DNA of 64,000 nucleotides from Chitinophagaceae bacterium (GTDB lineage: Bacteria > Bacteroidota > Bacteroidia > Chitinophagales > Chitinophagaceae): positions 62,001 through 126,000 of the forward strand of contig JAHBTR010000005.1 of assembly GCA_019638475.1 (NCBI GenBank). Direction: 5' to 3'. The first letter of the stretch is position 1. Every line of letters begins with the position of its first letter. Shown here piece after piece: positions 7,602 to 32,099 of this stretch. The notes beneath the pieces are model-generated. The model was not told the DNA's origin. It saw only the letters and a list, made by a program, of their open reading frames with translations, and made no database searches. The position numbers and the translations under genes were made by a program.

Positions 7602-7613
7602 AAAATAGAACGA

Positions 7614-7750
7614 GCAGCCAACAAACAGTTTTGCAATAGTGCGGCTGACGGTCATAGGCTCAACATTTGTGCTACTTTGAACTTTTATGCTAACTTCGGC
7701 TGACGAGCTTCGATTGCCGCACCATCGCAAAGCTGCCGGACGTTAGGCAC
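7614..7750 (+). repeat. attC-like site 7 (C7/C8 boundary)
   Basis: Left core GCAGCCAAC (7614-7622) is the exact reverse complement of the C7 start GTTGGCTGC. Right core is GTTAGGCAC (7742-7750). Arms CAGTTTTGCAATAGTGCGGC and GCCGCACCATCGCAAAGCTG pair well. 137 bp. Confidence 0.88.
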
Positions 7751-8004
7751 AAGCGTAGGACGACCGAACTACACAAACAAAGCAACGGACAACATTGACA
7801 GGTGGACAACATACAGACCATATTGCGACAGGACAACGAGTAAGCCGACACGCAATGCCTGACCCTATGTATTTTTTATTTTCCCCACCGCACATTTTTA
7901 TTCAATTTTGCCGACACACAGCAAGCACACCCAAGCCCACCCGCCACCCGACATTTCTAATTTTTGGCAATTTATCAACATTGCTGCCGTTTCATAGATT
8001 TTTG
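7751..8004 (+). other. C8 leader with shared blocks, no gene
   Basis: No gene is seen. It holds GTAGGACGAC (7755-7764), found at the same distance from the crossover in C3 and (as GTAGGACACC) C11, and a block starting CCAAGCCCACCC (7931-7953) shared with the leaders of C11 and C12. The strand is rich in A, C and GACA and poor in T. Confidence 0.6.
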
Positions 8005-8027: not shown

Positions 8028-8774
8028 ATCATCGCAACAGACAAACTACATACCGACAAATTAAAACGCCATTTCAAGAACAAATCTGTTTTTGAAACAC
8101 AAGACATTGTTGCGTTCTACGAACAAATCGAAAAGGGCATCAAACCAACAACGGTAAATTGGCGTGTGTACACTTTGGTTCAAGAGGGCGTTTTGCAACG
8201 CATAGGCAGAGGAAAATTTACACTTGGCGAAGGCAAAAACTATGTTCCCGAAATTTCATCGGCAACAAAAACTGTTTTCAAGAAATTAAAAGCAGAATTT
8301 CCCTATGCCAATTTGTGCGTTTGGAACACTTCCGTTTTAAACGAATTTATGCAGCACCAACCTAACCGATTTTTTGTGTTAGTGGAAACAGACAAAGAAA
8401 CAACCAATTCTGTTTTTTACTTTTTGCGTGAAATAAAAAAATCGGTTTTTATTGAACCGACAAAAGATATTTTGGAAAAATATGTGCTAAAAGAAAATGA
8501 AGTGTTTATAGTAAAACCTCTTATTTCGGAAGCACCAACGCAAAACATAAACGGAGTTGAAACGGCAACCATAGAAAAAATGTTAGTGGATATTTTTTGC
8601 GATGACGTAATTTTTTCGGCTCAACAAGGTGCTGAAATGCGCACTATTTTCATAGAGACATTTAGAAAATACACCATTAACCAAAGCAAAATGCTTCGCT
8701 ATGCCGACAGACGAAGAAAAAAAGAAGAACTAAACCAATTTGTAAAAACAATTTCAAATTTATGGCAGCAATAA
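8028..8774 (+). CDS. AbiEi-like antitoxin (DUF6577 type), non-canonical start
   Basis: About 248 aa. The open frame runs from 8025 after a stop at 8022 and contains no ATG, GTG or TTG until GTG 8166, yet the translated N-terminus (KLHTDKLKRHFKNKSVF, DIVAFYEQI, TTVNWRVYTLVQEG, RIGRGKFTLGEG) is the expected winged-helix of AbiEi antitoxins. Start must be ATC 8028 or 8031, or a mutated ATG. The antitoxin represses its operon and neutralises AbiEii in type IV toxin-antitoxin systems. It is 22 bases ahead of the toxin gene in C8. The family is clear; the start is the uncertain part. Confidence 0.75.
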   Translation: MIATDKLHTDKLKRHFKNKSVFETQDIVAFYEQIEKGIKPTTVNWRVYTLVQEGVLQRIGRGKFTLGEGKNYVPEISSATKTVFKKLKAEFPYANLCVWNTSVLNEFMQHQPNRFFVLVETDKETTNSVFYFLREIKKSVFIEPTKDILEKYVLKENEVFIVKPLISEAPTQNINGVETATIEKMLVDIFCDDVIFSAQQGAEMRTIFIETFRKYTINQSKMLRYADRRRKKEELNQFVKTISNLWQQ

Positions 8775-8796: not shown

Positions 8797-9864
8797 ATGA
8801 TAAATAGAACCGAAATATCAAGCGAGTGGCTTAATCAAGTATCAAAGCAACACCGAAATGCGGATAAAATTCTTGTAGAGAAAGTTATCCGTGCCTTGTT
8901 GCTGTTGGAAGGTTTGGCAAAGCAAAACCTTTCCTTTGTTTTCAAAGGCGGCACAGCGTTGATGTTACATTTCAATTCAACCAAACGACTTTCAATAGAC
9001 ATTGACATTATTCTGCCGAATGAAATCAAAGACTTGGAAAGTATTTTAGATGCAATCGTAAAAGAACAAGGATTTTTGAGAAAAGAACTGCAACACCGAA
9101 GCACAAACTCAAAAATCAAAAAAGAGCATTACAAGTTTTTCTACACTCCTCTGCACAAAACCAACAAAGATGAAGAATATGTTTTGTTGGATATTCTTTT
9201 TGAAGAAGTGAATTACGCCAACTTAATTTCCTTGCCAATCCATTCTGATTTTGTTCCGCAATCGGGCAAACCGCTCACCGTAAACGTGCCGAGCTTGGAA
9301 GATATTTTGGGCGACAAACTCACTGCGTTTGCACCCAACACCACAGGCATTCCCTACTTCAAAAAAGACGACAGTATGAGTATGGAAATCATCAAACAAC
9401 TTTACGACATCGGAAATTTGTTTGATGCAGTAAACGATATTGAAACTATTAAAACTACGTTTTATCGTTTTGCTAAAACCGAAATTGCTTATCGCAATTC
9501 CGCAGGAATTTCTGAAAGTGATGTATTGGAAGATATTTACGAAACGGCTCTTTGCATTGTAAGCAGAGGAACAGACGGAAAAGGCAATTTTGATGAACTG
9601 TTAAACGGTATTTTACGAATGAAAGGTTTTATATTTTCAGAAACATATCACATTGAAAAAGCAATCACCCACGCTTCAAAGGCGGCTTACCTTTCGGCTT
9701 TGATACAACACAATGCAAAAACGATTGATAAGTTTGAAAATCCGCTTCAATTAAAAGATTGGCAGATTGGCGAGCCGCTCAACAACAAGTTGAACAAGCT
9801 GAAAAAATCCAATCCCGAAGCGTTTTTTTATTGGTATAAGATTTATGAACTGAAAAGCAAATAA
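8797..9864 (+). CDS. AbiEii-like nucleotidyltransferase toxin
   Basis: 355 aa. The nucleotidyltransferase signature FVFKGGTALMLHF followed by RLSIDIDIILP gives the Gly-Gly-Ser/Thr motif and the two metal-binding Asp residues (about 70 and 72). A second block LEDILGDKLTAFAP is also typical of AbiEii. Such toxins transfer nucleotides, e.g. to tRNA, and stop growth when phage infection upsets the antitoxin. It follows the AbiEi-like gene by 22 bases and precedes the giant helicase by 23, so three genes form one operon within C8. Confidence 0.85.
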   Translation: MINRTEISSEWLNQVSKQHRNADKILVEKVIRALLLLEGLAKQNLSFVFKGGTALMLHFNSTKRLSIDIDIILPNEIKDLESILDAIVKEQGFLRKELQHRSTNSKIKKEHYKFFYTPLHKTNKDEEYVLLDILFEEVNYANLISLPIHSDFVPQSGKPLTVNVPSLEDILGDKLTAFAPNTTGIPYFKKDDSMSMEIIKQLYDIGNLFDAVNDIETIKTTFYRFAKTEIAYRNSAGISESDVLEDIYETALCIVSRGTDGKGNFDELLNGILRMKGFIFSETYHIEKAITHASKAAYLSALIQHNAKTIDKFENPLQLKDWQIGEPLNNKLNKLKKSNPEAFFYWYKIYELKSK

Positions 9865-9887: not shown

Positions 9888-12800
9888 ATGAACTCTATTG
9901 CATTCATTGATACGGAGGTTGAACCTAAGAGCGGAAAAGTTCTTGACATTGGAAGTGTCAAGGACAACGGGGCTTCTTTCCATAAAACTTCGGTAGCCGA
10001 CTTTATACAGTTTATCAATGGAACTCAATTCGTCTGCGGACACAACATTTTCAATCACGACATCAAATACATTGGCAAAGCTCTCAATGATGCAGGAATA
10101 AGTTCGGCAAACATCATTGACACCTTGTTTCTTTCGCCTTTGCTTTTCCCGACAAAGCCGTATCATAAACTACTCAAAGACGACAAACTTCAATCGGAAG
10201 ACACAAACAATCCGTTGAACGATTCTATCAAAGCAAAAGATTTGTTGAATGACGAAATTGCTACTTTCAAGCAGACAGACGACACGCTCAAACAAATTTT
10301 TTATTTGCTGTTATACGACAAAAAAGAGTTCCACGCATTTTTTCGTTACATCAGATACAATAGTACAAGCACAGACATTGAAAAACTAATTCGTGAAAAA
10401 TTCAAAAACGAACTTTGCGAACAAGTTGATTTAGCGAAAATTATTTCAGAAAAACCGATTGAACTTGCTTACTGTTTATCGCTGATAAATTCTTTTATTC
10501 AATACAAAAAAATCCATTCCATAACGCCACCATGGGTTTTAAAAAATTATCCCGAAGTTGAACGGATAATGTTTCGTTTACGAAACAAACCTTGTGTAAG
10601 CGGTTGTGAGTATTGCAACAGCGTTTTAGACGCACACAAAGGACTGAAACGATTTTTCGGTTTTGATTCCTACAGAAGTTACGGTGGCGAACCGTTGCAA
10701 GAAAAAGCGGTTAAAGCTGCGATTGACAATAAATCTATACTTGCTGTTTTTCCGACAGGTGGCGGAAAGTCAATCACATTTCAAGTTCCCGCTTTGATGA
10801 GCGGAGAAACTTCAAAAGGTTTAACCGTTGTGATTTCGCCTTTGCAATCGCTAATGAAAGACCAAGTTGACAACCTTGAAAAAGTTGGAATTACTGATGC
10901 GGTTACAATAAACGGTTTACTTGACCCAATTGAAAGAGCAAAGTCTTTTGAAAGAATTGAAGAAGGTTCGGCTTCTATTCTTTACATATCGCCAGAATCG
11001 CTACGCTCAAAAACGATTGAACGTTTAGTTTTGGGTAGAAAAGTTGCACGTTTTGTTATTGATGAAGCTCACTGTTTTTCTTCGTGGGGACAAGATTTTA
11101 GAGTTGATTATTTATACATCGGAGATTTCATCAAAACGATTCAAGAAAAGAAAAATCTTGAAGATGGTATTCCTGTTTCGTGTTTCACTGCAACAGCTAA
11201 ACAAAAAGTAATTGAAGACATACGAGATTATTTCAGAGAAAAACTTTCGCTTAATCTTGAATTGTTTACTTCAACAGCATCACGAACAAATCTTAAATAC
11301 AAAATTTTTGAAAAAGGAGACGAAGAAGAAAAATACCAAACAGCGAGAGACTTAATTGAAGAAAAAAATTGCCCGACTATCATTTATGTTTCACGAACAC
11401 GAAAAGCCTACACGCTTGCTGAACGCTTGAAAGAAGACGGTTTTAGTGCAAAACCGTATCACGGTAAAATGGATAAGCAGGAAAAATCTGAAAATCAAGA
11501 TTCGTTTATCAATGGAGAAACTCAAATAATGGTGGCTACTTCTGCTTTTGGAATGGGCGTTGACAAAAAAGACGTTGGAATGGTCATTCACTATGAAATT
11601 TCCGATTCACTTGAAAACTATATTCAGGAAGCAGGACGAGCAGGACGAGACGAAAATATTACAGCGGATTGTTTTGTGCTGTTTAACGAAGAAGATTTAA
11701 GCAAACATTTTATTCTTTTAAATCAAACCAAGCTTTCCATTAAAGAAATTCAGCAAGTTTGGAAAGCCATAAAAGATATTACAAGATTCCGTTCATCGGT
11801 TTCAAATTCCGCTTTGGAAATTGCACGAAAAGCAGGTTGGGATGACAATGTTGTTGAAATTGAAACAAGAGTTACAACAGCCATTGCAGCGTTGGAAGAT
11901 GCAGGATATTTGAAACGAGGACAAAATATGCCACGAGTTTTTGCCAATAGTATTCTTGCAAAAAATGCACAAGAAGCCATTGACAAAATCAATGCTTCGG
12001 AAAAATTTGTTGGAAACCAAAAAGAAAAAGGTGTAAGAATTATCAAGAAACTTTTTTCAAGCAAAAGCAGAAAGCAATCAAGCGATGAAGTTGCAGAATC
12101 AAGAATTGATTACATCAGCGACCATTTAGGAATTGTAAAAGAAGAAGTGATAAACATTGTCAATCTTTTGCGTGAAGAAAAGATTTTAGCCGATGCAAAA
12201 GATTTAACCGCTTTTATCAAAAAAGGAGAAAACAAAAATCGTTCGTTCAACATCGTTGACACATTCAGTAAAATTGAAAACTTTTTGCTTCCAATTGTTG
12301 AAGAACAAGAAAAAGTATTTCACATTAAAGAACTGAACGAACAAGCCGAAGAAAAAGGACTTGACGACATCAGCACCAATAAGATTAAAACCATTTTCAA
12401 TTTTTGGGCAATCAAAAATTGGGTTAAGCGACAACGTTTAGAATCAAAAAATCACGTTGCTGTTCTTTCATTACACCCGAAAGAATTATTGAAAGACAAA
12501 TTAGAGAAACGACACGCTTTGGCAAAATTTATTGTTGAGTTTCTCTATGAAAAAAGTAATGTGAACGCTTCGGAAAAAGATTCTACAAAAGAAGAAGTGC
12601 TCGTTGAATTTTCAGTTCAAGAATTAAAAACCGCTTACGAGAAAAGTTCAAGTTTGTTTAAAGTGGACATCAACCTTGACGATATTGAAGATACGTTATT
12701 TTACTTGTCAAGAATTGAAGCGATAAAGATTGAAGGCGGTTTTCTTGTTGTGTATAATCGTTTGACCATTGAACGAACTGAACAAGACAACAAAAAACGT

Positions 12801-14708
12801 TATACAAAAGACGATTATCAAAAACTGCATCAGTTTTACGAAAACAAAGTTCAGCAAATTCACATCGTTGGCGAATACGCCAAAAAAATGATTGAGGACT
12901 ACAAAAGTGCTTTGCAGTTTGTAGAAGATTATTTTCATTTAAATTATTCATCGTTTTTACACAGATATTTTCCGGGCAGTCGTCAAAATGAAATCAAACG
13001 AAACATTACGCCAGCTAAATTCAGACAACTTTTCGGAGAACTTTCGCCAACACAATTAAAAATCATAAACGACAACGAAACGAAACATATTGTTGTTGCT
13101 GCGGGTCCGGGAAGCGGAAAAACAAGAGTTTTAGTTCACAAATTGGCTTCATTACTTTTAATGGAAGATGTGAAACACGAACAGTTGCTTATGATTACGT
13201 TTTCAAGAGCAGCAGCAACCGAATTTAAAAAGCGTTTATTAAAACTTATCGGAAACGCAGCAAACTTTATTGAAATAAAAACTTTCCATTCTTACTGTTT
13301 TGATTTGTTGGGCAAAGTCGGCAGTTTGGAAAAATCAGACGAAATTCTAAAAAAGACAATTCAGAAAATAAAGAATAACGAAGTTGAAGCAAGCCGAATA
13401 ACAAAAACCGTTTTGGTAATTGACGAAGCACAAGATATGGACAAAGACGAGTTCGATTTGATAAGTGCGTTAATGGAACAAAATGAAGAAATGCGAGTAA
13501 TTGCCGTTGGCGATGACGACCAAAATATTTATGAATTTAGAGGCGCAAGTTCAAAACATCTTGAACAATTCATTCAGGCGAACAATGCAGTCAAACACGA
13601 ATTAGTAGAGAATTACAGAAGCAAAATCAATCTTGTTGATTTTTCAAATCAATTTGTAAAACGGATTTCTTACCGATTAAAACAAACGCCAATTATTGCA
13701 AAGCAAAATGACAACGGAAAAATAAAAATCGTGCGTTATCAAACTGGAAACCTGATCAATCCACTTGTGCAAGACATTCTCACAACAGGACTTTCGGGAA
13801 CAACTTGTGTATTGACAAAGACAAACGAAGAAGCATTACAAATTACAGGATTGCTTTTGAAAAATGGTATTCAAGCAAAATTAATTCAGTCCAATGACGG
13901 TTTCAGTTTATACAATCTTAATGAAGTCCGCTATTTTTTAAGCCATTTGAATTTAGCTGATGATGTTTACATAATCAACGATGATGTTTGGTTAAACGCA
14001 AAACGTGAAGTTGTAAACAAATATCGACACAGCACCAAATTGGAAATTTTAGGAAACATCATCAAAGAATTTGAAGCAAGCAATCCGAAAAAGAAATACA
14101 AATCCGACTTAGAAGTTTTCATTCGTGAATCCAAACTTGAAGATTTTTATAGCGAAAATGGCGAGGCAATTTTCGTTTCAACAATTCACAAAGCAAAAGG
14201 AAAAGAGTTCGACAATGTTTTTCTAATGCTGGACAGCTTTAATGCCGTATCAGACGAAGCAAATCGGCTGCTTTATGTGGCAATGACAAGAGCAAAAACC
14301 AACTTGACAATTCACCTAAACTCAAACTTTTTTGACAATCTCACAGCAGACAATTTAGAGCGAATTGAAAACAAAGAAACGCATTTACAACCGAACGAAT
14401 TGGCAATGCACTTGTTGTTAAAAGACGTTTGGCTTGACTATTTCATAACCCGACAAGGTTTGATTTCTCAACTAAAAAGCGGAGACAACTTAACACTAAA
14501 AGACGATGAATGTTTAGACGATAAAGGAAAATCTGTTTTAAAGTTCTCTAGGCAGTTCGTTGGACAAATTGAAAATATGAAAGCGAAAAACTATGTATTG
14601 AAAAGTGCAAAAGTGAATTTTATAGTTTATTGGAAAAAAGAAGACACAGAACAAGAAGTGAAAATTATTTTACCCGAACTTTATTTTGAAAGAAAAAATA
14701 ACGAATGA
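9888..14708 (+). CDS. Exonuclease-RecQ-UvrD fusion helicase
   Basis: 1606 aa, three enzyme modules. (1) DEDD-type 3'-5' exonuclease, residues 1-200: FIDTE at 6-10 and CGHNIFNHD near 50-58. (2) RecQ-type SF2 helicase: Walker A PTGGGKS near 290, DEAH near 391, motif VI QEAGRAGRDE near 580, then a winged-helix region. (3) UvrD-type SF1A helicase: GPGSGKTRVL near 1073, VIDEAQD near 1177, GDDDQNIYEFRG near 1206, and YVAMTRAK near 1462. A Cys cluster (PCVSGCEYC, about 240-248) precedes the RecQ part. It should unwind and degrade DNA. Sharing an operon with AbiE suggests phage defence, but this is inference. Confidence 0.9.
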   Translation: MNSIAFIDTEVEPKSGKVLDIGSVKDNGASFHKTSVADFIQFINGTQFVCGHNIFNHDIKYIGKALNDAGISSANIIDTLFLSPLLFPTKPYHKLLKDDKLQSEDTNNPLNDSIKAKDLLNDEIATFKQTDDTLKQIFYLLLYDKKEFHAFFRYIRYNSTSTDIEKLIREKFKNELCEQVDLAKIISEKPIELAYCLSLINSFIQYKKIHSITPPWVLKNYPEVERIMFRLRNKPCVSGCEYCNSVLDAHKGLKRFFGFDSYRSYGGEPLQEKAVKAAIDNKSILAVFPTGGGKSITFQVPALMSGETSKGLTVVISPLQSLMKDQVDNLEKVGITDAVTINGLLDPIERAKSFERIEEGSASILYISPESLRSKTIERLVLGRKVARFVIDEAHCFSSWGQDFRVDYLYIGDFIKTIQEKKNLEDGIPVSCFTATAKQKVIEDIRDYFREKLSLNLELFTSTASRTNLKYKIFEKGDEEEKYQTARDLIEEKNCPTIIYVSRTRKAYTLAERLKEDGFSAKPYHGKMDKQEKSENQDSFINGETQIMVATSAFGMGVDKKDVGMVIHYEISDSLENYIQEAGRAGRDENITADCFVLFNEEDLSKHFILLNQTKLSIKEIQQVWKAIKDITRFRSSVSNSALEIARKAGWDDNVVEIETRVTTAIAALEDAGYLKRGQNMPRVFANSILAKNAQEAIDKINASEKFVGNQKEKGVRIIKKLFSSKSRKQSSDEVAESRIDYISDHLGIVKEEVINIVNLLREEKILADAKDLTAFIKKGENKNRSFNIVDTFSKIENFLLPIVEEQEKVFHIKELNEQAEEKGLDDISTNKIKTIFNFWAIKNWVKRQRLESKNHVAVLSLHPKELLKDKLEKRHALAKFIVEFLYEKSNVNASEKDSTKEEVLVEFSVQELKTAYEKSSSLFKVDINLDDIEDTLFYLSRIEAIKIEGGFLVVYNRLTIERTEQDNKKRYTKDDYQKLHQFYENKVQQIHIVGEYAKKMIEDYKSALQFVEDYFHLNYSSFLHRYFPGSRQNEIKRNITPAKFRQLFGELSPTQLKIINDNETKHIVVAAGPGSGKTRVLVHKLASLLLMEDVKHEQLLMITFSRAAATEFKKRLLKLIGNAANFIEIKTFHSYCFDLLGKVGSLEKSDEILKKTIQKIKNNEVEASRITKTVLVIDEAQDMDKDEFDLISALMEQNEEMRVIAVGDDDQNIYEFRGASSKHLEQFIQANNAVKHELVENYRSKINLVDFSNQFVKRISYRLKQTPIIAKQNDNGKIKIVRYQTGNLINPLVQDILTTGLSGTTCVLTKTNEEALQITGLLLKNGIQAKLIQSNDGFSLYNLNEVRYFLSHLNLADDVYIINDDVWLNAKREVVNKYRHSTKLEILGNIIKEFEASNPKKKYKSDLEVFIRESKLEDFYSENGEAIFVSTIHKAKGKEFDNVFLMLDSFNAVSDEANRLLYVAMTRAKTNLTIHLNSNFFDNLTADNLERIENKETHLQPNELAMHLLLKDVWLDYFITRQGLISQLKSGDNLTLKDDECLDDKGKSVLKFSRQFVGQIENMKAKNYVLKSAKVNFIVYWKKEDTEQEVKIILPELYFERKNNE

Positions 14709-14937
14709 GAAACTCCAACAGCCACACACAGGTGCAAGCACATTTGCAAACCGCACAAGCCGAAACACAAACCAAAGTTTGTAAAAGAGCTTCCACTTTT
14801 CTACCCCTGACAAAAAATTGAATAAAAATTTCCTTCCCTTCTGAAAATAAAAAATACGCAACCACACAAACCGACACGACAATGACAGCCAAACCCACGA
14901 CAGACAAAAACTTGACAACACAGTGGACAAAACGCCT
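14709..14937 (+). other. C8 tail with block shared with C11, no gene
   Basis: 229 bases, A/C-rich, no gene. Positions 14736-14776 (starting AAGCACATTTGCAA, then CGCACAAGCCGA) are nearly identical to 25865-25906 in the tail of C11, although the genes of C8 and C11 are unrelated. Confidence 0.65.
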
Positions 14938-15076
14938 GTGCATAACAGCGGTTTGGTGCAAGCGGGGGGGGTTAGTGCTTCGATTGACAGTTTTTCGGTA
15001 AATTTGAACTTTCGGCTTCGTAGGAAGTTTTGTGGTAAAATCCCCCGCCTGCGCCAAGCCGCAAACCGTTGGCGGC
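14938..15076 (+). repeat. attC-like site 8 (C8/C9 boundary)
   Basis: Left core GTGCATAAC (14938-14946) matches the reverse complement of the C8 start (GTGCCTAAC) at 8 of 9 bases. Right core is GTTGGCGGC (15068-15076). Arms GCGGTTTGGTGCAAGCGGGGG and CCCCCGCCTGCGCCAAGCC pair. TAAATTTG lies in the centre at 14999-15006. 139 bp. Confidence 0.86.
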
Positions 15077-15154
15077 TATGCTAATAGACACCACGTTCCA
15101 ACAAACAGTTGACAATTTGACGACAATTTCAACTGACTTTACTAACATTTTGAG

Positions 15155-15187: not shown

Positions 15188-16102
15188 ATGAGTAAAATAA
15201 TATCAGACATAGCAATAAAAAGACGAGATTATTGGGTTGAAGAAATCCGTAAACTTAGTGGACACTTTGGAAACGACACAGAAAAATTAGAAAAGGAATT
15301 AGAAGCAGAAATAAAGAAAAATGGGGTTTCTTCACTAATTGACCATTTAAGACTGTGCGGAAATATCCCTGAGAGCTACGGACACGACACAAGCGAAGAA
15401 AAATTATACTCAAAATATACGGACTGTTTACTTTCTTTTGCTTACACCGCATTAGGTCTCAAAAGTTTAGTGCTAAAAGAAAGAGCAGATGCAGCAGACG
15501 TAGAAGCATTTGCAAAAGATTACAGTTTTGTAGCAGATGCAAAAGCATTTAGATTAAGTAGAACTGCAAAAAATCAAAAAGATTTCAAGGTTCAAGCAAT
15601 GCACGGTTGGAAACGTGGCAAACCTTATGCAATGGTTGTTTGCCCAATTTATCAACTTCCAACTTCTTCAAGCCAAATCTACCAACAAGCAACTACTCAA
15701 AATGTATGTGTTTTTACATATTCACATTTGTCTTTGCTTCTTTCCTATTCAAAAGTTGAAGGACAAGCAAAAGCCCAACAATTATTGAAGAAAATATTCG
15801 AGACAATCCAAGCTCTCAATCCTTCAAAAAATGCAACTGATTATTGGTTAGCAATCAATAAATCTATTCTTTCCTTTTCAAAGAAAATACAACCACTTTG
15901 GGACATAGAAAAAGGGGTAGCGACTGAAAGTATCGCAGTTGCAAAAGATGAAGCATTGACTTTTCTAGCACAAGAAAGAGAAAAAATAATGAGAATGGGT
16001 CATAAAGAAGCATTGAAAGAACTTATCAAAGTTCACAAAATTGAGAGCAGGATTAAAACAATCAATGGAATTTCTGACAACGGACTATTCACACTAAAAT
16101 AA
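15188..16102 (+). CDS. HindIII-family type II restriction endonuclease
   Basis: 304 aa, close to HindIII's 300. The stretch VADAKAFRLSRTAKNQKDFK (115-134) is nearly identical to the HindIII active-site region, giving the D117-x-K119 pair of the PD-(D/E)xK nuclease fold; D104 precedes it as the likely third acidic residue. PTSSSQIYQQAT also matches HindIII's PTTKSQIFKQS. HindIII cuts AAGCTT as a dimer; the same specificity is likely but not proven. The methyltransferase follows after five bases in C9. Confidence 0.93.
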   Translation: MSKIISDIAIKRRDYWVEEIRKLSGHFGNDTEKLEKELEAEIKKNGVSSLIDHLRLCGNIPESYGHDTSEEKLYSKYTDCLLSFAYTALGLKSLVLKERADAADVEAFAKDYSFVADAKAFRLSRTAKNQKDFKVQAMHGWKRGKPYAMVVCPIYQLPTSSSQIYQQATTQNVCVFTYSHLSLLLSYSKVEGQAKAQQLLKKIFETIQALNPSKNATDYWLAINKSILSFSKKIQPLWDIEKGVATESIAVAKDEALTFLAQEREKIMRMGHKEALKELIKVHKIESRIKTINGISDNGLFTLK

Positions 16103-16107
16103 AGAAG

Positions 16108-17037
16108 ATGAACATTGATAAATATATAAACCAAATCATTGAAGGCAACTGTGTTGAAGTAATGAAAAAATTTGATGATGAAGTTATTGATTTAACTGTT
16201 ACTTCACCACCATACGACAATCTTAGAAATTATAAAGGATTTGAATTTCCATTTGAAGATATAGCTAAAGAACTTTACAGAGTTACTAAACAAGGTGGCG
16301 TTGTTGTTTGGGTTGTTAACGATGCAACAATTGAAGGAAGTGAAACAGGAACAAGTTTTAGTCAAGCACTTTATTTCAGAGAAATTGGCTTTAATCTTCA
16401 CGACACAATGATTTTTCGCAAGACAAACCCAATTCCTCAAATTTACCGAAAACGCTACAATAATGAATTTGAATTTATGTTCGTTTTTAGCAAAGGAACA
16501 GTAAAGACACATAATCCATTAATGGTTGACTGTTTACACGCAGGTTTAGAACTTAACGGAACGACCTACAAAAACTTCTCTAAAAACGAGCAGACCAGAG
16601 AAAAAATGGCAAAACCTGTTAAGGACAAAAAAATTAAAGGCAACATTTGGGAATATGTAGTTGGCAAAAAACAAGAAGACCAAGAAGCAAAAGGACACCC
16701 AGCACCATTTCCTTGCGAACTTGTTAGAGACCACATAAAATCGTGGACAAATCAAGGCGACATAGTTTTTGACCCAATGAGTGGAAGTGGAACAGTTGCA
16801 AGAGTTGCAGCAGAAATGGGCAGACAATATATTGGCGTTGACATAAGCCAAGAATATTGTGAAATTGCAAGAAAACGAGTTAAATTAATTGAAAGTACAC
16901 CGACATTATTTATTGTAGAAGAACCCGAAATTGAGTACAACGCAACGACAGAAAAAGAAGCACAGCCACTAACAGGGGTTTTGCAAAATGGCGGGTTCAG
17001 TGCTAAATTGAACGGTAGTAATTCTATTAAAGTTTAG
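16108..17037 (+). CDS. DNA methyltransferase of the HindIII-like system, attC-encoded tail
   Basis: 309 aa, beta-type order: catalytic motif IV TSPPY (32-36) comes before the SAM motif I DPMSGSGTVA (about 222-231). It should methylate the site cut by the upstream nuclease, as an N6-adenine enzyme if that site is AAGCTT. The left core of site 9 begins at 16965 inside the gene, so the last 24 residues (from QPLTGVLQNGG to the end) are encoded by the attC-like repeat. The natural end was probably lost when the cassette formed, or the tail is dispensable. Confidence 0.9.
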   Translation: MNIDKYINQIIEGNCVEVMKKFDDEVIDLTVTSPPYDNLRNYKGFEFPFEDIAKELYRVTKQGGVVVWVVNDATIEGSETGTSFSQALYFREIGFNLHDTMIFRKTNPIPQIYRKRYNNEFEFMFVFSKGTVKTHNPLMVDCLHAGLELNGTTYKNFSKNEQTREKMAKPVKDKKIKGNIWEYVVGKKQEDQEAKGHPAPFPCELVRDHIKSWTNQGDIVFDPMSGSGTVARVAAEMGRQYIGVDISQEYCEIARKRVKLIESTPTLFIVEEPEIEYNATTEKEAQPLTGVLQNGGFSAKLNGSNSIKV

Positions 17038-17100
17038 TGCTAAATTGAACATTTGTGCCTTGAAATCCGCCACTTCGCAAAGCCCCAAAACGTTATGTGC
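16965..17100 (+). repeat. attC-like site 9 (C9/C10 boundary), overlaps a CDS
   Basis: Left core GCCACTAAC (16965-16973) matches the expected GCCGCCAAC at 7 of 9 bases, both differences being transitions. Right core is GTTATGTGC (17092-17100). Arms GGGGTTTTGCAAAATGGCGG and CCGCCACTTCGCAAAGCCCC pair. The methyltransferase stop codon lies in its centre. 136 bp. Confidence 0.86.
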
Positions 17101-17108
17101 AACCCTAA

Positions 17109-19249: not shown

Positions 19250-19258
19250 AAAGGGTAT

Positions 19259-19394
19259 GCACATAACACGGGTTTGGCGATAGTGGCAGATAACGGCTTC
19301 GATTGAACGTTTCTGCAAAGTTGAAAGTTAGTACATCTATCAAACTTTCGTGCTAAAAGTGCCACCCTCGCCAAGTGAGTCAGACGTTACAGGC
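19259..19394 (+). repeat. attC-like site 10 (C10/C11 boundary)
   Basis: Left core GCACATAAC (19259-19267) is the exact reverse complement of the C10 start GTTATGTGC. Right core is GTTACAGGC (19386-19394). The inner arm GGTTTGGCGATAGTGGC pairs with GCCACCCTCGCCAAG, but the outer right arm (GAGTCAGAC) does not match the left arm, as in site 13. Confidence 0.85.
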
Positions 19395-19626
19395 TATGGT
19401 AGGACACCCCAACACCGACAGAGCAACCGTTGACAAACCACAAGCCGACACAAAAAAAATTAAAAAAATCCCACCGCACGGAAAATTTTTTAGCCCACAC
19501 CATTGGCACATTTTGTTTTGCCCCGACCCACAAGCCAACCCTTCGGCAAAACAAAAAGAGCCAAGCCCACCCACCACCCAATAATTGGGCTTAGACAAGG
19601 TAAATTTTACAGAAACGAAAAAAAAC
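19395..19626 (+). repeat. C11 leader with hairpin and shared blocks, no gene
   Basis: No gene. GTAGGACACC (19399-19408) is 13 bases from the crossover, as in C3 and C8. A perfect 12-bp inverted repeat TTTTGTTTTGCC (19511-19522) / GGCAAAACAAAA (19545-19556) encloses a 22-base loop. CCAAGCCCACCC and following bases (19561-19583) are shared with C8 and C12. Confidence 0.6.
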
Positions 19627-19657
19627 TTGCACAATCAAAAAACTGTTTCTATATTTG
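19627..19657 (+). promoter_or_regulatory. Promoter of the tetR gene
   Basis: TTG (19627-19629), 20 bases, TATATTTG (19650-19657): a consensus Bacteroidota primary-sigma promoter. The operator palindrome starts two bases further on, so repressor binding would block initiation. Confidence 0.8.
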
Positions 19658-19659
19658 CC

Positions 19660-19680
19660 GACTAAAATACGCTTTTAGTC
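19660..19680 (+). promoter_or_regulatory. TetR operator O1
   Basis: A 21-bp inverted repeat with perfect 8-base arms GACTAAAA / TTTTAGTC around TACGC, directly downstream of the -7 box and 8 bases before the tetR start. A similar 21-bp sequence lies before the efflux genes (20334-20354). Autorepression is inferred. Confidence 0.75.
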
Positions 19681-19687
19681 AATAAGT

Positions 19688-20287
19688 ATGAATATGGAAA
19701 AAGACGAAATTGTAATTCAGGACATAATAAACGGAGCTAAAAAGCTAATGCAACAATATGGGTTGAAAAAAACCACAATGGAAGATATTGCCAAAGCTGC
19801 GGGCAAAAGCAAAAGCACCTTATATTATTATTTCAAAGACAAAGAAGAAATATTTGACAGGGTTATCAACCTTGAAATAGACGAGTTTTTCCAAACAGTA
19901 AAAATTACCGTTAATAAACAGGCAGATGCAATCAGTATGCTGAAAGCATACATTGTAACAAAAGTCAAAACATTAAGGGATAAGACCAACCTGTATAGCT
20001 TTGCGATTGAAAATGATTTGCAGGGGCGGATTAATAAAGAGTTTACCAATCTGCGAAACAGGTACGACAATGAAGAAAGGAAACTGATAAGTTCTATTTT
20101 GACAAAAGGTGTTGAAAGTAAATTATTCACAAATGAAATCACACCTGAAATAGATACATTAAGCGAACTTTTAGTAAGCTGCATTAGAGGTGTAGAAATG
20201 GACATCATTGCACATAACAAGAATAAGGCTTTAGCAGATAAAGCAGACTTGTTGGTTCAAATCCTTATAAAAGGTATCGGCAGATAG
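19688..20287 (+). CDS. TetR-family repressor of the adjacent efflux operon
   Basis: 199 aa. The N-terminal helix-turn-helix matches TetR: AKKLMQQYGLKKTTMEDIAK then AGKSKSTLYYYFKDKEE. The C-terminal all-helical part should bind the inducer. ATG 19688 fits; a start at 19694 is also possible. It lies between the two operator-like palindromes and upstream of a complete RND system, so it is almost certainly the local repressor, released by substrates of the pump. Confidence 0.9.
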   Translation: MNMEKDEIVIQDIINGAKKLMQQYGLKKTTMEDIAKAAGKSKSTLYYYFKDKEEIFDRVINLEIDEFFQTVKITVNKQADAISMLKAYIVTKVKTLRDKTNLYSFAIENDLQGRINKEFTNLRNRYDNEERKLISSILTKGVESKLFTNEITPEIDTLSELLVSCIRGVEMDIIAHNKNKALADKADLLVQILIKGIGR

Positions 20288-20333
20288 TCTAAACAATTAT
20301 GCTTTTCGGAGCATTTTTTTTGAATTAAAAACT

Positions 20334-20354
20334 GACCATAAAACGTATTTAGTC
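20334..20354 (+). promoter_or_regulatory. TetR operator O2 before the efflux genes
   Basis: A 21-bp imperfect palindrome (GACCATAAAA ... TATTTAGTC) identical to O1 at most positions, 27 bases before the adaptor gene. It suggests direct control of the efflux operon by the TetR protein. Confidence 0.7.
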
Positions 20355-20380
20355 AAATAGTAAAAATAAAAAACAAAACA

Positions 20381-21409
20381 ATGAACAGGATAAATCATTT
20401 AGCATTAGCGGGAATACTTGTATTGGCAAGTTGTACGCACAAAGAAAATACATCAGTTGTAGAAAGCAACGGTGCAATAAACGTTCAGACAGAACAGCCT
20501 ACAAATTACACAGGGCTTATTCAATCGGGTTATTCGGGTGTGGTAGAAGCACAAAAAACAACGGCTTTGAGTTTTGCTACTATGGGTACAATCACAGAAA
20601 TTTTTGTTGATGAGGGGCAGGCAGTAACCAAAGGGCAGTTGTTAGCAAAAGTAGATGCTTCCAATGCCCAAAATGCCTATCAGATTGCCGCAGCTAAATT
20701 ACAACAGGCAGAAGATGCTTACCAAAGGCTGAAACCAATGAAAGATAACGGAACGCTGCCCGAAATAAAATGGGTGGAAGTAGAAACAGGAGTATCACAG
20801 GCAAAATCTGCCGTAGCCATTGCTAAAAAAAATATCAGCGATTGCAACCTGTATGCACCTGTAAGCGGTGTAATCGGCAAAAGAAATGTGCAAGCGGGTA
20901 TGAATGTAGTGCCAACAACAACCGTTTTGGAATTACTGAACATACAATCGGTGTACGTTAAAATCCCTGTTTCGGAAAATGAAATAAGCCTGTTTAAGAA
21001 AGGCGAAACCGCACAAATCACTATCAACGCCATTGATAAAACAGTTACAGGAACGATAAAGGAAATTGGCGTTACGGCTGATATTTTATCGCATACCTAC
21101 CCTGTAAAAATTGAAGTACAAAATACCACAGGCGACATAAAGCCCGGTATGATTTGTTCCGTTCAAACCGTTGCACAAGACAAGCGTTCAGGTGTGTTAG
21201 TTTCCAATAAAGCCCTGCAAAAAGACGTAAACGGCAGTCAGTTCATTTATGTTGAGGAAAACAGTAAGGCAGTAAAAATTCCTGTACAAACCATTGCCCT
21301 GATTGACAACAAAATGTTGATACAAGGCGAAGTGCCACAAAATGCAAACATCATCATTTCGGGACAACAAAAACTAAGTAACGGCACACCTGTAAAAATC
21401 ATCAACTAA
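20381..21409 (+). CDS. RND efflux periplasmic adaptor (membrane fusion protein)
   Basis: 342 aa lipoprotein (LVLASC, Cys 18). It has HlyD/AcrA-type architecture: barrel and lipoyl halves (GTITEIFVDEGQAVTKGQLLAKVD and YAPVSGVIGKRNVQAGMNV) around a coiled-coil hairpin (AAAKLQQAEDAYQRL), then a beta-barrel domain. It links the inner-membrane pump to the outer-membrane channel. Two bases separate it from the pump gene. Part of C11. Confidence 0.92.
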   Translation: MNRINHLALAGILVLASCTHKENTSVVESNGAINVQTEQPTNYTGLIQSGYSGVVEAQKTTALSFATMGTITEIFVDEGQAVTKGQLLAKVDASNAQNAYQIAAAKLQQAEDAYQRLKPMKDNGTLPEIKWVEVETGVSQAKSAVAIAKKNISDCNLYAPVSGVIGKRNVQAGMNVVPTTTVLELLNIQSVYVKIPVSENEISLFKKGETAQITINAIDKTVTGTIKEIGVTADILSHTYPVKIEVQNTTGDIKPGMICSVQTVAQDKRSGVLVSNKALQKDVNGSQFIYVEENSKAVKIPVQTIALIDNKMLIQGEVPQNANIIISGQQKLSNGTPVKIIN

Positions 21410-21411
21410 TT

Positions 21412-24400
21412 ATGACAACCAAAAATTTCAATATCATAGAATTGGCTATGAAGCATAAGCAGATAGCCATTATTATAACAAGCATTTTCGTTCTGTTTGG
21501 CGTATTCTCTCTGATAGTAATGCCAAGAAATGAGTTTCCCGAATTTACTATTCGTCAGGGCTTAATCATTGGTGTTTATCCGGGTGCAACATCTGCACAG
21601 GTAGAAGAACAATTAGCCACCAAAGTAGAAAGTTTTCTGTACGGATTTGAAGAAGTAAACAGAGAAAAATCCTATTCTATTTCCAAAGAAGGAATGTTGA
21701 TTGTGTTTGTAGAAGTCAATAACAATGTAAAAGACCCTGACGCTTTTTGGGATAAGATAAAATTCGGGCTGAACAATCTGAAAGCAGAATTACCACCACA
21801 GGTTTTAGCCCTGATAGCCAACAACGATTTTGGCAACACATCTGCCATTTTGCTTACCGTGCAATCCGATAGCAAAACCTATAAAGAACTTGACCGTGAA
21901 CTGAAAGTTATTGAAACGGAATTGCGAAAAATAAAAGCCGTTTCCAAAGTAAAACATTTTGGTTTGACACAAGAGCAAATTACCATTTACCCCGACAACG
22001 ATAAATTAGCTTATTATGCTGTAAAACCAATGAGTGTTTTGATTGCAGCACAGTTAGAGGGTGCTGTATATTATGGCGGGGAGTTAGATAATGCGGAGCA
22101 GATAACACCGATACACATTCCCGCTACTTACAACACGGAAGAAGATATTAAAAACCAAATCGTTTATACCGACCCCGCAGGTAACGTTATCCGTGTAAAA
22201 GACGTAGCCCGTGTAGTAAGAGAATATCCTAAGCCTGACGCTTACATAAAAAACAACGGTACAAACAGTTTGCTCATTTCTTTGGAAATGCAACCCGGCA
22301 ACAACATTGTTGCCTTTGGTAAAACAGTGGACGAAACCCTGCAATCCTTGAAAGGAAAAATTTCGCCTGATGTGCAAGTGTCCAAAATCGCTGATATGCC
22401 GCAAGCTGTCGGGCATTCCATTACACATTTCCTGAAAGAATTTGCCATTGCCATTTTTGCGGTAATTATCGTAACGATGCTATTACTGCCGTTTCGTGTA
22501 GCAGCCGTTGCAGGTGCAACTATTCCGATTTCTATTTTTATTACCATTGGTATTTTATATGCGTTGGGTGTGGAACTGCATACGGTATCGTTGGCAGGAT
22601 TGATTGTCGTGTTGGGTATGGTGGTGGACAACGCCATTGTGGTTTTGGACGGACACATTGAAAAATTAGACCACAAAGAAACCCCTTGGAACGCAGCTTG
22701 GAAAAGTGCCAAAGAATTGTTTGTTCCTGTTTTTTCCGCAACAATGGCAATTATAGCCACTTACGTTCCAATGGTATTTTTCCTTGACGGAATGGTGGGC
22801 GACTTTGTCGGTTCATTGCCTATAACCATTGGCGTAGCTTTAATTACGTCATTGCTGATAGCCTGTTTGCTTGTTCCGTATATGAGTTATGTGTTCATCA
22901 AAAAAGGAATTAAAAAAGAACAAGACAAACCAAAGAAAAAATCGTTATTGGATTGGGTGCAGAAATTTTATGACAGCACTTTGGAATGGGCGTTTCGTAT
23001 TCCTAAAACTACTATCCTGTTGGGCATTTTTTCGGTTGCATTAGGTGGGTTAATCCTTGCCTTAGTTCCACGTCAGTTATTCCCAAAGGTGGACAGAAAC
23101 CAATTTGCAGTAGAAATTTATTTGCCAGAGGGCAGTACGTTGGAGCAAACCGCTTTTGTTTCCGACAGCTTGGAACAAATGCTGATGAAAGACAAGCGGG
23201 TGGTGAATGTGGCTGCATTTATCGGTACAAGTTCGCCCCGCTTCCATACTACTTATGCCCCAAATTTTCCGTCAAAAAATTATGCTCAATTAGTCGTGAA
23301 TACGCAAACGGCTGATGATGCACTTGCCATTTTGAACGAGTACGAAACAAAATACCGAAATCTTTTTCCCAATGCGTATGTGCGAATGAAACAATTAGAC
23401 CTGTTGAGTACCACAGCACCCATTGAAGTGCGTATCAGCGGAGATAATATAGATACGATTAAAACATTGGCACAGCAGGTAAAAACTGTAATGGAAAAAA
23501 ATGAAAACATTATTTGGGCAAGAACTGATTACTTAAATCCACGACAAGGAATAAGCATACAGGTAAACGATGAAACGGCAAACCGATTGGGATTAACCAA
23601 AGGAGTAGTAGCAACATCATTGGCAGCAGGTTTATCAGGTTTACCCATCGGCACAATATGGGAGGGCGACTATCCGATAAGTATTAAGCTGATGAACGAG
23701 CCTCAACAAAAAAACAGCTTTGACGACATCGGCAATCAAAATGTAACATCGCCATTAACAGGGGCTACCGTTCCTGTAAGACAATTAGCAACAAGTATTA
23801 CCAACGATTGGAGCGAGGGGCAAATTATCCGAAGAAACGGCACAAGAACAATTACCGTTCGTGCCGATGTAAAACGTGGCGTATTGCCTTACAAAGTGCT
23901 GTCCGATTTAAAAACGCAAATCAAAAAGCTGTACAAAGACGAACAAGTTACTTTATCGTATGGCGGGGAAGAAGAAAGCGAAGTAGAAAACTATATCCCA
24001 TTGGCTAAGGCTTTGTTTGCAGGTGTTTTGCTTATCTTCTTTATCCTGTTGTTTCAATTCAAAAATCCAAAATTGGTTTTCTTGGTAATGATGACAATGC
24101 CGTTAAGTTTTTTGGGTGCAGCATTGGGATTAACCATTACAGGCTATCCGTTTGGATTAACTTCTTTCTTAGGTATAATGAGCCTGATGGGGATTGTTGT
24201 CCGCAATGGTATTATCCTCATTGATTATGCGGAAGAATTGAGAAGTAAAAACGGAATGTCGCTTTCCAATGCAGCCATAGCAGCAGGAAAACGCAGAATG
24301 CGACCAATTTTCTTAACATCATTTGCGGCTGCCGTTGGTGTTGTGCCAATGATAGTAAGCGGCTCTACCCTTTGGGGACCGCTTGGTGCGGTCGTGTGTT

Positions 24401-24483
24401 TCGGGTTATTGGTATCAATGATACTCACCCTGTATATGCTGCCTGTAATGTATCAGCAATTATTTAAAAAAAATCACGCTTAA
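21412..24483 (+). CDS. RND-family efflux pump (AcrB-like permease)
   Basis: 1023 aa, typical RND length, with the N-terminal membrane helix, two periplasmic loops and two six-helix bundles. The proton-relay motif VVDNAIVVLDGHIE in TM4 is present, as is the second repeat GIMSLMGIVVRNGIILIDYA. It exports toxic compounds using the proton gradient. Drug or metal specificity cannot be told; heavy-metal CusA-type hallmarks are not seen. Codons are close to those of neighbouring cassettes. Unusually large cargo for a cassette. Confidence 0.93.
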   Translation: MTTKNFNIIELAMKHKQIAIIITSIFVLFGVFSLIVMPRNEFPEFTIRQGLIIGVYPGATSAQVEEQLATKVESFLYGFEEVNREKSYSISKEGMLIVFVEVNNNVKDPDAFWDKIKFGLNNLKAELPPQVLALIANNDFGNTSAILLTVQSDSKTYKELDRELKVIETELRKIKAVSKVKHFGLTQEQITIYPDNDKLAYYAVKPMSVLIAAQLEGAVYYGGELDNAEQITPIHIPATYNTEEDIKNQIVYTDPAGNVIRVKDVARVVREYPKPDAYIKNNGTNSLLISLEMQPGNNIVAFGKTVDETLQSLKGKISPDVQVSKIADMPQAVGHSITHFLKEFAIAIFAVIIVTMLLLPFRVAAVAGATIPISIFITIGILYALGVELHTVSLAGLIVVLGMVVDNAIVVLDGHIEKLDHKETPWNAAWKSAKELFVPVFSATMAIIATYVPMVFFLDGMVGDFVGSLPITIGVALITSLLIACLLVPYMSYVFIKKGIKKEQDKPKKKSLLDWVQKFYDSTLEWAFRIPKTTILLGIFSVALGGLILALVPRQLFPKVDRNQFAVEIYLPEGSTLEQTAFVSDSLEQMLMKDKRVVNVAAFIGTSSPRFHTTYAPNFPSKNYAQLVVNTQTADDALAILNEYETKYRNLFPNAYVRMKQLDLLSTTAPIEVRISGDNIDTIKTLAQQVKTVMEKNENIIWARTDYLNPRQGISIQVNDETANRLGLTKGVVATSLAAGLSGLPIGTIWEGDYPISIKLMNEPQQKNSFDDIGNQNVTSPLTGATVPVRQLATSITNDWSEGQIIRRNGTRTITVRADVKRGVLPYKVLSDLKTQIKKLYKDEQVTLSYGGEEESEVENYIPLAKALFAGVLLIFFILLFQFKNPKLVFLVMMTMPLSFLGAALGLTITGYPFGLTSFLGIMSLMGIVVRNGIILIDYAEELRSKNGMSLSNAAIAAGKRRMRPIFLTSFAAAVGVVPMIVSGSTLWGPLGAVVCFGLLVSMILTLYMLPVMYQQLFKKNHA

Positions 24484-24493
24484 AAATCAATAG

Positions 24494-25843
24494 ATGAAAA
24501 AAATAACAATAATCGTTGTTGCTTTGATTACATCGGCAGCAGCATACAGTCAAACAACACTCACGTTGGAACAAAGCAAATCACTTGCTTTAAAAAACAA
24601 CAAAGCATTACAAAACGCAGCTTTGGAAATAGAAGCAGCAAATCAGATAAAGAAAAATGCTTTCACTAATTATTTTCCCAAAGTGAGTGCCAATGTTTTT
24701 GGGTTTCAGGCTATCAATCCATTGATTGAATACAAAATGGAGGGCGGAAACTTACCTGTATATGACGGCAATCCCGCTAATCTTGGCACAGCTACGCAGT
24801 TCGCTTATTTCCCCGGAATGGAATTGAGTATGCTGCAACGTTCAGCAATAGGCGTTCTGAATATTGCACAGCCCATTTATGCAGGTGGGAAAATAAGCAC
24901 AGGCAACAAATTGGCAGCCCTTAATGTAGATGTGAAAGAAAAGCAGCAACAACTGACTGAAAACGAAATATTACTTAAAACCGAACAGCAGTATTGGCAA
25001 CTAATTTCATTACAGGAAAAACAAAACACGTTGGAAAAATACGAACTGTTGTTAAACGATGTCCGCAAACAGGTAGATGACGCTTTCAAATCGGGGTTGA
25101 TTATTAAAAACGATGTACTGAAAGTGCAAATCAAACAAAGCGAATTAGAAGCCAATAAAAATAAATTGCTGAACGGAAAGAAATTAGCGACAATGCAATT
25201 CTGCCAAACCATAGGGATACCTTATGACAGCACATTGGTATTGCAGGAAGTAATTGATATAAGCCAAAGCCCTTACCAATATTACACCGACAACCAAAAC
25301 GCATTAACCCAAAGAACGGAGTACCAGCTTTTGGAAAAATCGGTAGAAGCCACACAACTACAAACTAAAATGAAAACAGGCGACTATATGCCCACCGTTG
25401 CCGTTGGATTGGCAGGTTATCATATCAATATGTTGGAAAAAGGAGTGAATAATTATACCAATGGATTGGCTTATGTGTCGGTTTCCATTCCAATATCCGA
25501 TTGGTGGGGCGGAAGCTATGCCATTAAAGAACAGAAAATAAAACAACGAATTGCAGAAAACACATTTGAGGACACCAAAGGTTTATTAAACCTGCAAATG
25601 GAAAAGGCTTGGACTGATGTAAACGAAGCGTGGAAGCAAATAGCCATTATGAAAGAAACAGCCATACAAGCCGAAGAAAATTTGAAAGTAAGTAAAACAG
25701 GTTATGAAAGCGGTATAGTAACATTATCCGATTTGTTGGAAGCACAGGCATTAGTTACCGAAACAGCCGATAAGCTGACAGATGCACAAACACAATACAA
25801 GTTGGCGGTTACTACTTATTTGCAGGTAACAGGAAGAAAATAA
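24494..25843 (+). CDS. TolC-like outer membrane efflux protein
   Basis: 449 aa with a signal peptide (IIVVALITSAAAYSQ). It has the duplicated TolC layout: LTLEQSKSLALKNNKALQNAALEIEAA in the first half and a long coiled-coil region ending LKVSKTGYESGIVTLSDLLEAQALVTETADKLTDAQ in the second, both classic for the family. It forms the outer-membrane exit duct for the RND pump. Ten bases after the pump gene; last gene of C11. Confidence 0.92.
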   Translation: MKKITIIVVALITSAAAYSQTTLTLEQSKSLALKNNKALQNAALEIEAANQIKKNAFTNYFPKVSANVFGFQAINPLIEYKMEGGNLPVYDGNPANLGTATQFAYFPGMELSMLQRSAIGVLNIAQPIYAGGKISTGNKLAALNVDVKEKQQQLTENEILLKTEQQYWQLISLQEKQNTLEKYELLLNDVRKQVDDAFKSGLIIKNDVLKVQIKQSELEANKNKLLNGKKLATMQFCQTIGIPYDSTLVLQEVIDISQSPYQYYTDNQNALTQRTEYQLLEKSVEATQLQTKMKTGDYMPTVAVGLAGYHINMLEKGVNNYTNGLAYVSVSIPISDWWGGSYAIKEQKIKQRIAENTFEDTKGLLNLQMEKAWTDVNEAWKQIAIMKETAIQAEENLKVSKTGYESGIVTLSDLLEAQALVTETADKLTDAQTQYKLAVTTYLQVTGRK

Positions 25844-25994
25844 AACTGCTGAACATACAGGGACAAGCACATTTGCAAGTCGCACAAGCCGACACACAAA
25901 GCCAAACTAAAAATGCAAAAGAGCTACCAAGCCAACGCACGACAGACAGCCCTCAACCTGACACGACAGACAATTGACCGAAAGAGAAGAACGA
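25844..25994 (+). repeat. C11 tail with block shared with C8, no gene
   Basis: No gene. 25865-25906 repeats the C8 tail block at 14736-14776 (AAGCACATTTGCAA, CGCACAAGCCGA). The rest is A/C-rich with several CACGACAGACA-like words. Confidence 0.6.
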
Positions 25995-31314: not shown

Positions 31315-32099
31315 TGGCACTAACTCAACAACAGATACAGCAAGTTGAAACAGTTTTAAGAAACAGTTTACGCAATAAATTTCAAAGCTATAATCCTGAA
31401 CCAGCTTCAATGCCTTTTCACACAAGGCTTTTAGGAAAGGATAGAATGGCGTTGTTTTCGTTTATTCATTCATTAAACACAAATTTCGGAACAAGCATTT
31501 TTGAGCCGGTTGCTTTGGCATTGGCTTCAACAACTTTCAAAGAAGCAAAAACACAAGCTACGGCAGGGACACAAATCAGCGAAGCAGCACAACGTGTTAT
31601 TCAAGATATTATGGACGATTTGACCGCAGCAAATTCGCAACCAAACAAAGTGAACGAAATTGAAGCAATCAGAAAAGTTGCTCAAGCAGGAAATATGAAA
31701 ACGGTTAAGCCAACAAAAGTGGACATTTGGTTGCAAAGCAACGACAATCAATTTTACTTGTTTGACATCAAGACTGCAAAACCAAACAAAGGTGGTTTCA
31801 AAGAATTTAAGCGAACGCTTTTAGAATGGACAGCTTGCATTCTTGCTGATAATCCAAAAGCAAAAATCAACACTTTAATTGCAATTCCTTACAATCCTTA
31901 CGAACCAAAACCATATTCACGTTGGACAATGGCAGGAATGTTAGACTTACAAAACGAACTAAAAGTTGCAGACGAATTTTGGGACTTTCTTGGCGGACAA
32001 GGAACATACAAGCAACTGTTAGACACTTTTGAAAAAGTTGGCGTAGAATTACGACCAGAAATTGACAATTATTTTGCGAAATACAACAAGAAGAAATAA
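31314..32099 (+). CDS. TdeIII-family type II restriction endonuclease
   Basis: 261 aa. The core TKVDIWLQSNDNQFYLFDIKTAKPNKGGFKEFK contains a PD-(D/E)xK-like active site (D140 area, then FDIKTAKPN), and the order of segments fits the TdeIII family, whose founder cuts GGNCC as far as I recall. With the methyltransferase at 27964 it forms a type II system with the AIPR gene in between. Six bases separate its stop from the left core of site 13. Confidence 0.8.
   Translation: MALTQQQIQQVETVLRNSLRNKFQSYNPEPASMPFHTRLLGKDRMALFSFIHSLNTNFGTSIFEPVALALASTTFKEAKTQATAGTQISEAAQRVIQDIMDDLTAANSQPNKVNEIEAIRKVAQAGNMKTVKPTKVDIWLQSNDNQFYLFDIKTAKPNKGGFKEFKRTLLEWTACILADNPKAKINTLIAIPYNPYEPKPYSRWTMAGMLDLQNELKVADEFWDFLGGQGTYKQLLDTFEKVGVELRPEIDNYFAKYNKKK

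Follow-up and report, generated by a model that had tools for sequence, protein, structure and literature searches.

An exonuclease-RecQ-UvrD fusion carried in an integron-type cassette of Bacteroidota: a candidate one-gene defense enzyme

What does a single polypeptide do that joins a nuclease to two different helicases, and how does its gene travel? The question is raised by a gene in the window, as we call the whole stretch of 64,000 nucleotides from a Chitinophagaceae bacterium analyzed here. A preliminary description had read the product as a DEDD exonuclease, a RecQ helicase and a UvrD helicase fused in 1606 amino acids, and this architecture is borne out by the open reading frame, Pfam and NCBIfam matches, predicted folds and invariant carboxylates. 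The gene and its parts are as follows.

9888..14708, + strand: exonuclease-RecQ-UvrD fusion gene (ATG start, 1606 aa; 80 relatives align near full length)
9888..10277, + strand: DEDD exonuclease domain (residues 1-130; D8, E10, D58, D112; N107 replaces the DEDDh His)
10278..10637, + strand: helical Cys bridge, probable metal site (residues 131-250; C177, C236, C240, C243, from alignments)
10638..11732, + strand: RecQ-type SF2 helicase core (residues 251-615; TIGR00614; fold match to RecQ, BLM, RECQL5)
11733..13019, + strand: long helical linker (residues 616-1044; no Pfam match; low-confidence model)
13020..14372, + strand: compact UvrD/PcrA-type SF1A helicase (residues 1045-1495; Pfam UvrD-helicase and UvrD_C; UvrD fold)
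14373..14705, + strand: strand-rich C-terminal domain in the predicted model (residues 1496-1606; no Pfam match)

The RecQ and UvrD assignments are certain. Residues ~252-635 match the RecQ family model TIGR00614 of NCBIfam (E 4.5e-82, 276 bits against a cut-off of 219.8), and the predicted model of this core matches the folds of RecQ cores, including the BLM, RECQL5 and WRN structures. Pfam places the N part of UvrD at ~1053-1145 and its C part at 1380-1479; the predicted model of this region matches UvrD, PcrA and Rep, with Z up to 31.5 for UvrD, and the SF1A motifs GPGSGKT, DEAQD and GDDDQ are present in the sequence. In the alignments, both Walker A motifs, the DEAH box, the UvrD motifs and the DEDD carboxylates are intact and invariant over four phyla. 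A chance fusion or an assembly error is ruled out, since the 80 aligned relatives, and also homologs of distant phyla, share the architecture of ~1600 aa. Most bacterial RecQ proteins have an RQC zinc site, a Cys4 after the core, and the short RecQ5-type forms are without it; residues 600-760 of the window protein contain no Cys. Pfam gives no HRDC match in the linker, which is poorly modeled and of low confidence. A HIRAN-like identity of the C-terminal domain, suspected on a look at the sequence, found no support, with no Pfam match in this region.

The exonuclease is assigned by its catalytic carboxylates and predicted fold. No Pfam family matches this region of the window protein at E 0.01, the best meaningful among the weak Pfam matches of the N-terminal part is DNA_pol_B_exo1 (7 of 36 members, E 0.006), a PDB sequence search with this part was empty, and a fold search with the whole N-terminal model was filled by RecQ and DEAD-box cores. 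The RNase-H-like order of strands and helices is confident in the predicted model, and all four carboxylates (D8, E10, D58, D112) are conserved without exception in 36 Bacteroidota relatives as well as in homologs from three other phyla. When the fusion profile was compared with DEDD exonucleases by hhalign, the carboxylates aligned, with E 2.5e-4 for one pair at a probability of 43%. Assuming this hhalign register, the position of the catalytic His of DEDDh enzymes, five before the last Asp, is taken by Asn107, invariant in the aligned relatives; with this residue in place of His, nuclease activity may be slowed, changed or lost.

The cysteine cluster that had been noticed just before the RecQ part is likewise real, consisting of C236, C240 and C243 plus C177, all invariant in Bacteroidota. 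The four are kept in Alpha- and Gammaproteobacteria, gone from two cyanobacterial proteins and mostly gone from Aliarcobacter. That they are kept and lost together is consistent with a single metal site (zinc or iron-sulfur), and the Cys4 bridge is likely to bind a metal and to keep the exonuclease and RecQ together.

The identity of the motors bears directly on the suggestion of the preliminary description that the protein unwinds in both directions as a one-chain relative of RecBCD. RecBCD, AddAB and AdnAB do resemble the fusion in combining a motor or motors with a nuclease acting on DNA, here with a nuclease and both motors on a single polypeptide, and the UvrD part also matches the RecB, AddA and AdnB folds. 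However, they differ from it in nuclease type and motor polarity, and no matching subunits accompany the fusion. The RecB and RecD motors are of opposite polarity, whereas the RecQ and UvrD/PcrA families are both 3'-5' translocases on single strands, so that a joint run along two strands in the manner of RecB and RecD is not expected. In addition, Pfam and NCBIfam detect no PD-(D/E)XK nuclease, RecC or Chi-type module in the fusion. Bidirectional, RecBCD-like unwinding is not supported, and a one-chain end-processing machine of this type, with two motors moving on both strands in the same direction, is hardly credible.

The nearest working analogy is WRN, or Bacillus DinG, plus an added UvrD motor. 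In WRN, as in the fusion, the chain opens with a 3'-5' exonuclease of DEDD type and continues with a RecQ core; WRN differs in its DEDDy exonuclease, its RQC and HRDC domains and the lack of UvrD, while in the fusion RecQ leads into a helical linker of another kind, the UvrD helicase and the C-terminal domain. DinG of B. subtilis, described in the accessible text of PMC12525004 as a DEDD exonuclease with helicase domains that is linked to replication stress, is also a bacterial exonuclease-helicase fusion. Unlike the protein considered here, it has a single motor, an XPD-type helicase of a different family.

These analogies give rise to an alternative, in which the fusion is an accessory DNA-repair or replication-stress enzyme, a Werner or Bacillus DinG analogue that resolves forks, gaps and R-loops and has spread horizontally. 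Its domain logic fits WRN and B. subtilis DinG, the gene has no fixed partners, and conservation is high: of 299 relatives detected across 84,980 species genomes, the 80 kept are 71-94% identical. The occurrence of the gene, however, is very patchy. It is present in 14 of 296 genomes drawn evenly from the phylum of the window, and beyond Bacteroidota it has homologs in Campylobacterota, Pseudomonadota and Cyanobacteriota. Copies are found in integron-type cassettes, described below, and on plasmids of Bacteroides, Aliarcobacter, Rhodobacterales, Rhizobium, Thiothrix and cyanobacteria. Moreover, the host genome has separate RecQ-like and UvrD-like ORFs of its own; together with the patchy occurrence, they rule out that the fusion is the housekeeping RecQ or UvrD. 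Some homologs are broken (L014 and L063), and on the Nostoc sp. ATCC 53789 plasmid pNsp_a (L136, 4954-11699) the gene is apparently split by an IS1634 element, with the RecQ-containing piece before the transposase and the UvrD piece after it, as fits a dispensable gene. On balance we consider a repair function unlikely, although it deserves to be kept in mind.

Purifying selection acts on all parts of the fusion, with dN/dS of about 0.02-0.18. Patchy spread, carriage by plasmids and one viral contig, purifying selection and broken copies point to an accessory, mobile gene, and the picture that these sequences suggest is of a gene useful yet dispensable and often moving. The possibility that its homologs are mostly housekeeping genes in conserved chromosomal contexts, raised at the outset as a check, is not what was found, as the contexts vary freely and the gene is patchy. 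In phage records the matches are limited to the RecQ part, at ~35%. Many of the plasmid homologs carry 'RecQ family ATP-dependent DNA helicase' as their sole annotation, a database name that hides a distinct and mobile three-engine enzyme.

How the gene moves in the present genome is indicated by its surroundings, listed below with the covariance model scores of the attC-type sites.

7609..7753, + strand: attC-type site, 5' cassette border (106.7 bits, E 5e-24 with covariance model R1; one of the sites used for building R1)
8166..8774, + strand: AbiEi-type antitoxin, DUF6577 (PADLOC AbiEi E 9e-79 from model position 44; Pfam DUF6577)
8797..9864, + strand: AbiEii-type nucleotidyltransferase toxin (PADLOC AbiEii E 8e-139; Pfam AbiEii)
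14933..15079, + strand: attC-type site, 3' border of the cassette (125.1 bits, E 1.8e-28)
15188..16102, + strand: HindIII-type restriction enzyme of the next cassette (Pfam RE_HindIII E 7e-118)
16108..17037, + strand: N6/N4 methyltransferase of the HindIII cassette (Pfam N6_N4_Mtase E 2e-47)
16960..17103, + strand: attC-type site, end of the HindIII cassette (130.9 bits)

The intergenic direct repeats of ~145 bp are attC-like, with ends of the RYYYAAC and GTTRRRY types and an imperfect palindrome, and the AbiEi, AbiEii and fusion genes form one 7.3-kb cassette between the sites at 7609-7753 and 14933-15079. A scan that applied a strict energy filter yielded no attC site; the covariance model subsequently detected 12 strong ones between 690 and 33156 of the window, every one on the + strand. 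In the genome, it finds ~40 on contig C8 (671-95156, all +) and additional ones on contig C7 (1-10252, all -), the latter beside a tyrosine recombinase; we infer that C7, reversed and joined to the start of C8, makes a single array of more than 100 kb. Similar attC-type sites occur in congeners of the host. A comparison within the genus for an empty site revealed no shared locus, just attC repeats and scattered pieces.

The recombinase gene near the array (G000:C7 ~11.4-12.4 kb; L100:658-1728) encodes a protein with an IntI-like SPLD tail, which matches the integron integrase model TIGR02249 below cut-off. Relative to VchIntIA, it is shorter by ~43 aa between residues 261 and 283, the stretch of the IntI-specific insert, which is thus absent. 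Integrons are reported to be rare in Bacteroidota, and with IntegronFinder 2.0 a complete integron was found in Bacteroidetes solely in Salinibacter ruber M1, others being in Chlorobi and Ignavibacteriae (PMC9024848). Integron cassettes that carry defense systems have been described (Kieffer et al. and Darracq et al. 2025, references 10 and 11 of PMC13092281). The present cassette is like them in being bounded by attC, in its defense genes and in belonging to a long chromosomal array; it differs in its Bacteroidota array, its size of 7.3 kb with three genes, and the neighboring integrase without the VchIntIA insert. Restriction, AbiE and helicase-nuclease genes are here stored side by side in a member of Bacteroidota. 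A further cassette of the array, at 27964-32099, contains a DNA methylase, an AIPR protein and a TdeIII-type restriction enzyme.

Carriage of the fusion by cassettes is not confined to this genome. In Sphingobacterium lumbrici (L058), whose copy is 94% identical, these three genes are likewise enclosed by two attC-type sites, and DNA homology with the window extends from 7716, inside the first attC, to 15075, the core end of the second. In L009 the fusion stands alone between two attC sites, and in L003, L026, L016 and L027 one attC site is directly adjacent to it, in all five cases without AbiE. Overall, attC flanks the fusion in six of the 80 relatives, with seven sites against 1.0 expected (p 1.5e-4). 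Occurrence of attC sites at several loci indicates that the fusion has repeatedly been a cassette, mostly without AbiE.

The preliminary description had the fusion traveling with the AbiE pair as one mobile cassette. This stands for the window and for L058, where the unit is bounded by attC, whereas the 80 relatives show that AbiE is not its general partner. One may still ask whether the fusion belongs to an AbiE toxin-antitoxin module as its third gene and acts jointly with the pair: AbiEi and AbiEii lie directly upstream on the same strand, with gaps of 22-23 bp, and the one-cassette arrangement is shared by two genomes of different families. Of the 80 relatives, however, L058 alone carries this AbiE pair immediately upstream of the fusion, and the neighborhoods of these relatives rule out AbiE as a constant partner. 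The lone gene of L009 also argues against such a module, as does L002, where all that is left of AbiE upstream of an intact fusion gene is a remnant of 146 bp, so that the fusion outlives AbiE. A three-gene module is therefore very improbable, and AbiE is, judging from these neighborhoods, a separate passenger in the cassette and no required subunit. As for the antitoxin itself, its frame is open upstream to ~8061, the ATG of L058 corresponds to TTA in the window in the alignment, and the first 35 codons contain no ordinary start codon. The window AbiEi may be 35 residues shorter or begin at an unusual start codon, while its toxin partner AbiEii is intact.

The suggested role in defense is plausible in view of the neighbors of distant homologs. 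The Scytonema homolog lies directly 3' of DISARM drmABC, that of Pseudanabaena is near Druantia druE and a WYL/CARF gene, that of Allochromatium adjoins a type I R-M system, that of Thiothrix has Cas6d (CRISPR) nearby, and the Nostoc homolog (L136) has a viperin gene 4 kb downstream, the plasmid contexts in this set of distant homologs having been chosen by match rank, with no matched controls. On a viral contig (L129, 5507-7440), the fusion (56% identical) has a cytosine methylase and a restriction enzyme of type II as neighbors, and in L007 the fusion overlaps an HNH restriction-type gene by 4 bp. In the host array, the HindIII-type R-M cassette (15188-17037) follows the fusion cassette, and the TdeIII-type R-M cassette (27964-32099) is also present. 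Close relatives show no defense enrichment near the fusion, with 86 PADLOC families adjacent and 115 at >5.5 kb, a weak comparison that counts families matched and not proteins with matches.

Neighbors of another kind suggest an alternative, namely that the protein helps the plasmid or other element that carries it to be maintained, to recombine or to become established, and does not defend the host. Several plasmid copies adjoin partition or replication genes: ParA/ParB adjoin the Aliarcobacter copy, ParA and SSB are near the copy on a Bacteroides plasmid, and other copies are on conjugative cyanobacterial plasmids. At the same time, most of the relatives found are on chromosomal-type contigs with varied neighbors, functions for an element are not carried by integron cassettes, and several distant copies have the defense neighbors listed above. 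We regard a helper function of this sort as improbable.

Whether the combination is already listed as a defense system, a point left undecided in the preliminary description, was checked against PADLOC 2.0.0. Among the best 25 of 62 matches no model spans the whole fusion, and single helicase parts only are matched, by DpdF (327.7 bits), PsyrT (273.7 bits) and also GajB models. The RecQ core gives the best match in this set, and it is this core that PsyrT and DpdF have in common with the fusion; their models end after the helicase region, with no exonuclease or UvrD, and PsyrA and the Dpd operon are absent from the fusion locus. Gabija GajB, as well as UvrD/PcrA, shares the SF1A UvrD core, and the compact size of this part is GajB-like. 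In contrast to Gabija, however, the helicase is part of a larger chain and has no GajA (OLD-type nuclease) partner: there is no GajA adjacent to the fusion, whose neighbors are AbiEii upstream and the HindIII-type enzyme downstream. A search of the open-access literature, with many subscription journals outside its reach, returned no description of the fusion. The parts are known, and their assembly of exonuclease, RecQ and UvrD looks undescribed.

Taken together, we favor, with some but not great confidence, the reading in which the fusion is a stand-alone, horizontally mobile DNA-processing enzyme that serves as a one-gene defense against invading DNA. If so, it would be a one-gene system joining three activities that are usually split over several proteins. 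A more specific version, which we put forward tentatively as being a little short of an even prospect, is a widely transferred single-gene defense in which a WRN-like exonuclease-RecQ unit, whose DEDD site is of the Asn type and whose Cys4 cluster forms a metal site, is combined with UvrD to destroy invading replicating DNA; this version includes a range from Bacteroidota to Cyanobacteriota, carriage by integron cassettes and plasmids, and absence from defense catalogs.

A possible course of action of such an enzyme can be outlined from the properties of the families involved. The fusion would load where a DNA intermediate, such as the replicating forks of a phage or plasmid or a recombination intermediate, offers a single-stranded 3' end or a gap. 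RecQ and UvrD, motors of 3'-5' families, would unwind or remodel the intermediate, and the DEDD domain would trim the exposed 3' end, with the result that the intermediate is destroyed or blocked from completion. Two 3'-5' motors in one chain could either pull along the same strand or move apart on opposite strands.

Finally, two minor observations concern genes near the fusion and elsewhere in the array. On the viral contig L129, a LexA/CI-like repressor is encoded close to the fusion and the type II R-M pair. At 20381-25843 of the window, a row of genes of ~342, 1023 and 449 aa follows a TetR gene; by gene size and order alone, they resemble an efflux pump operon. The single attC interval that contains them, 19254-25990, would amount to a cassette of 6.7 kb.
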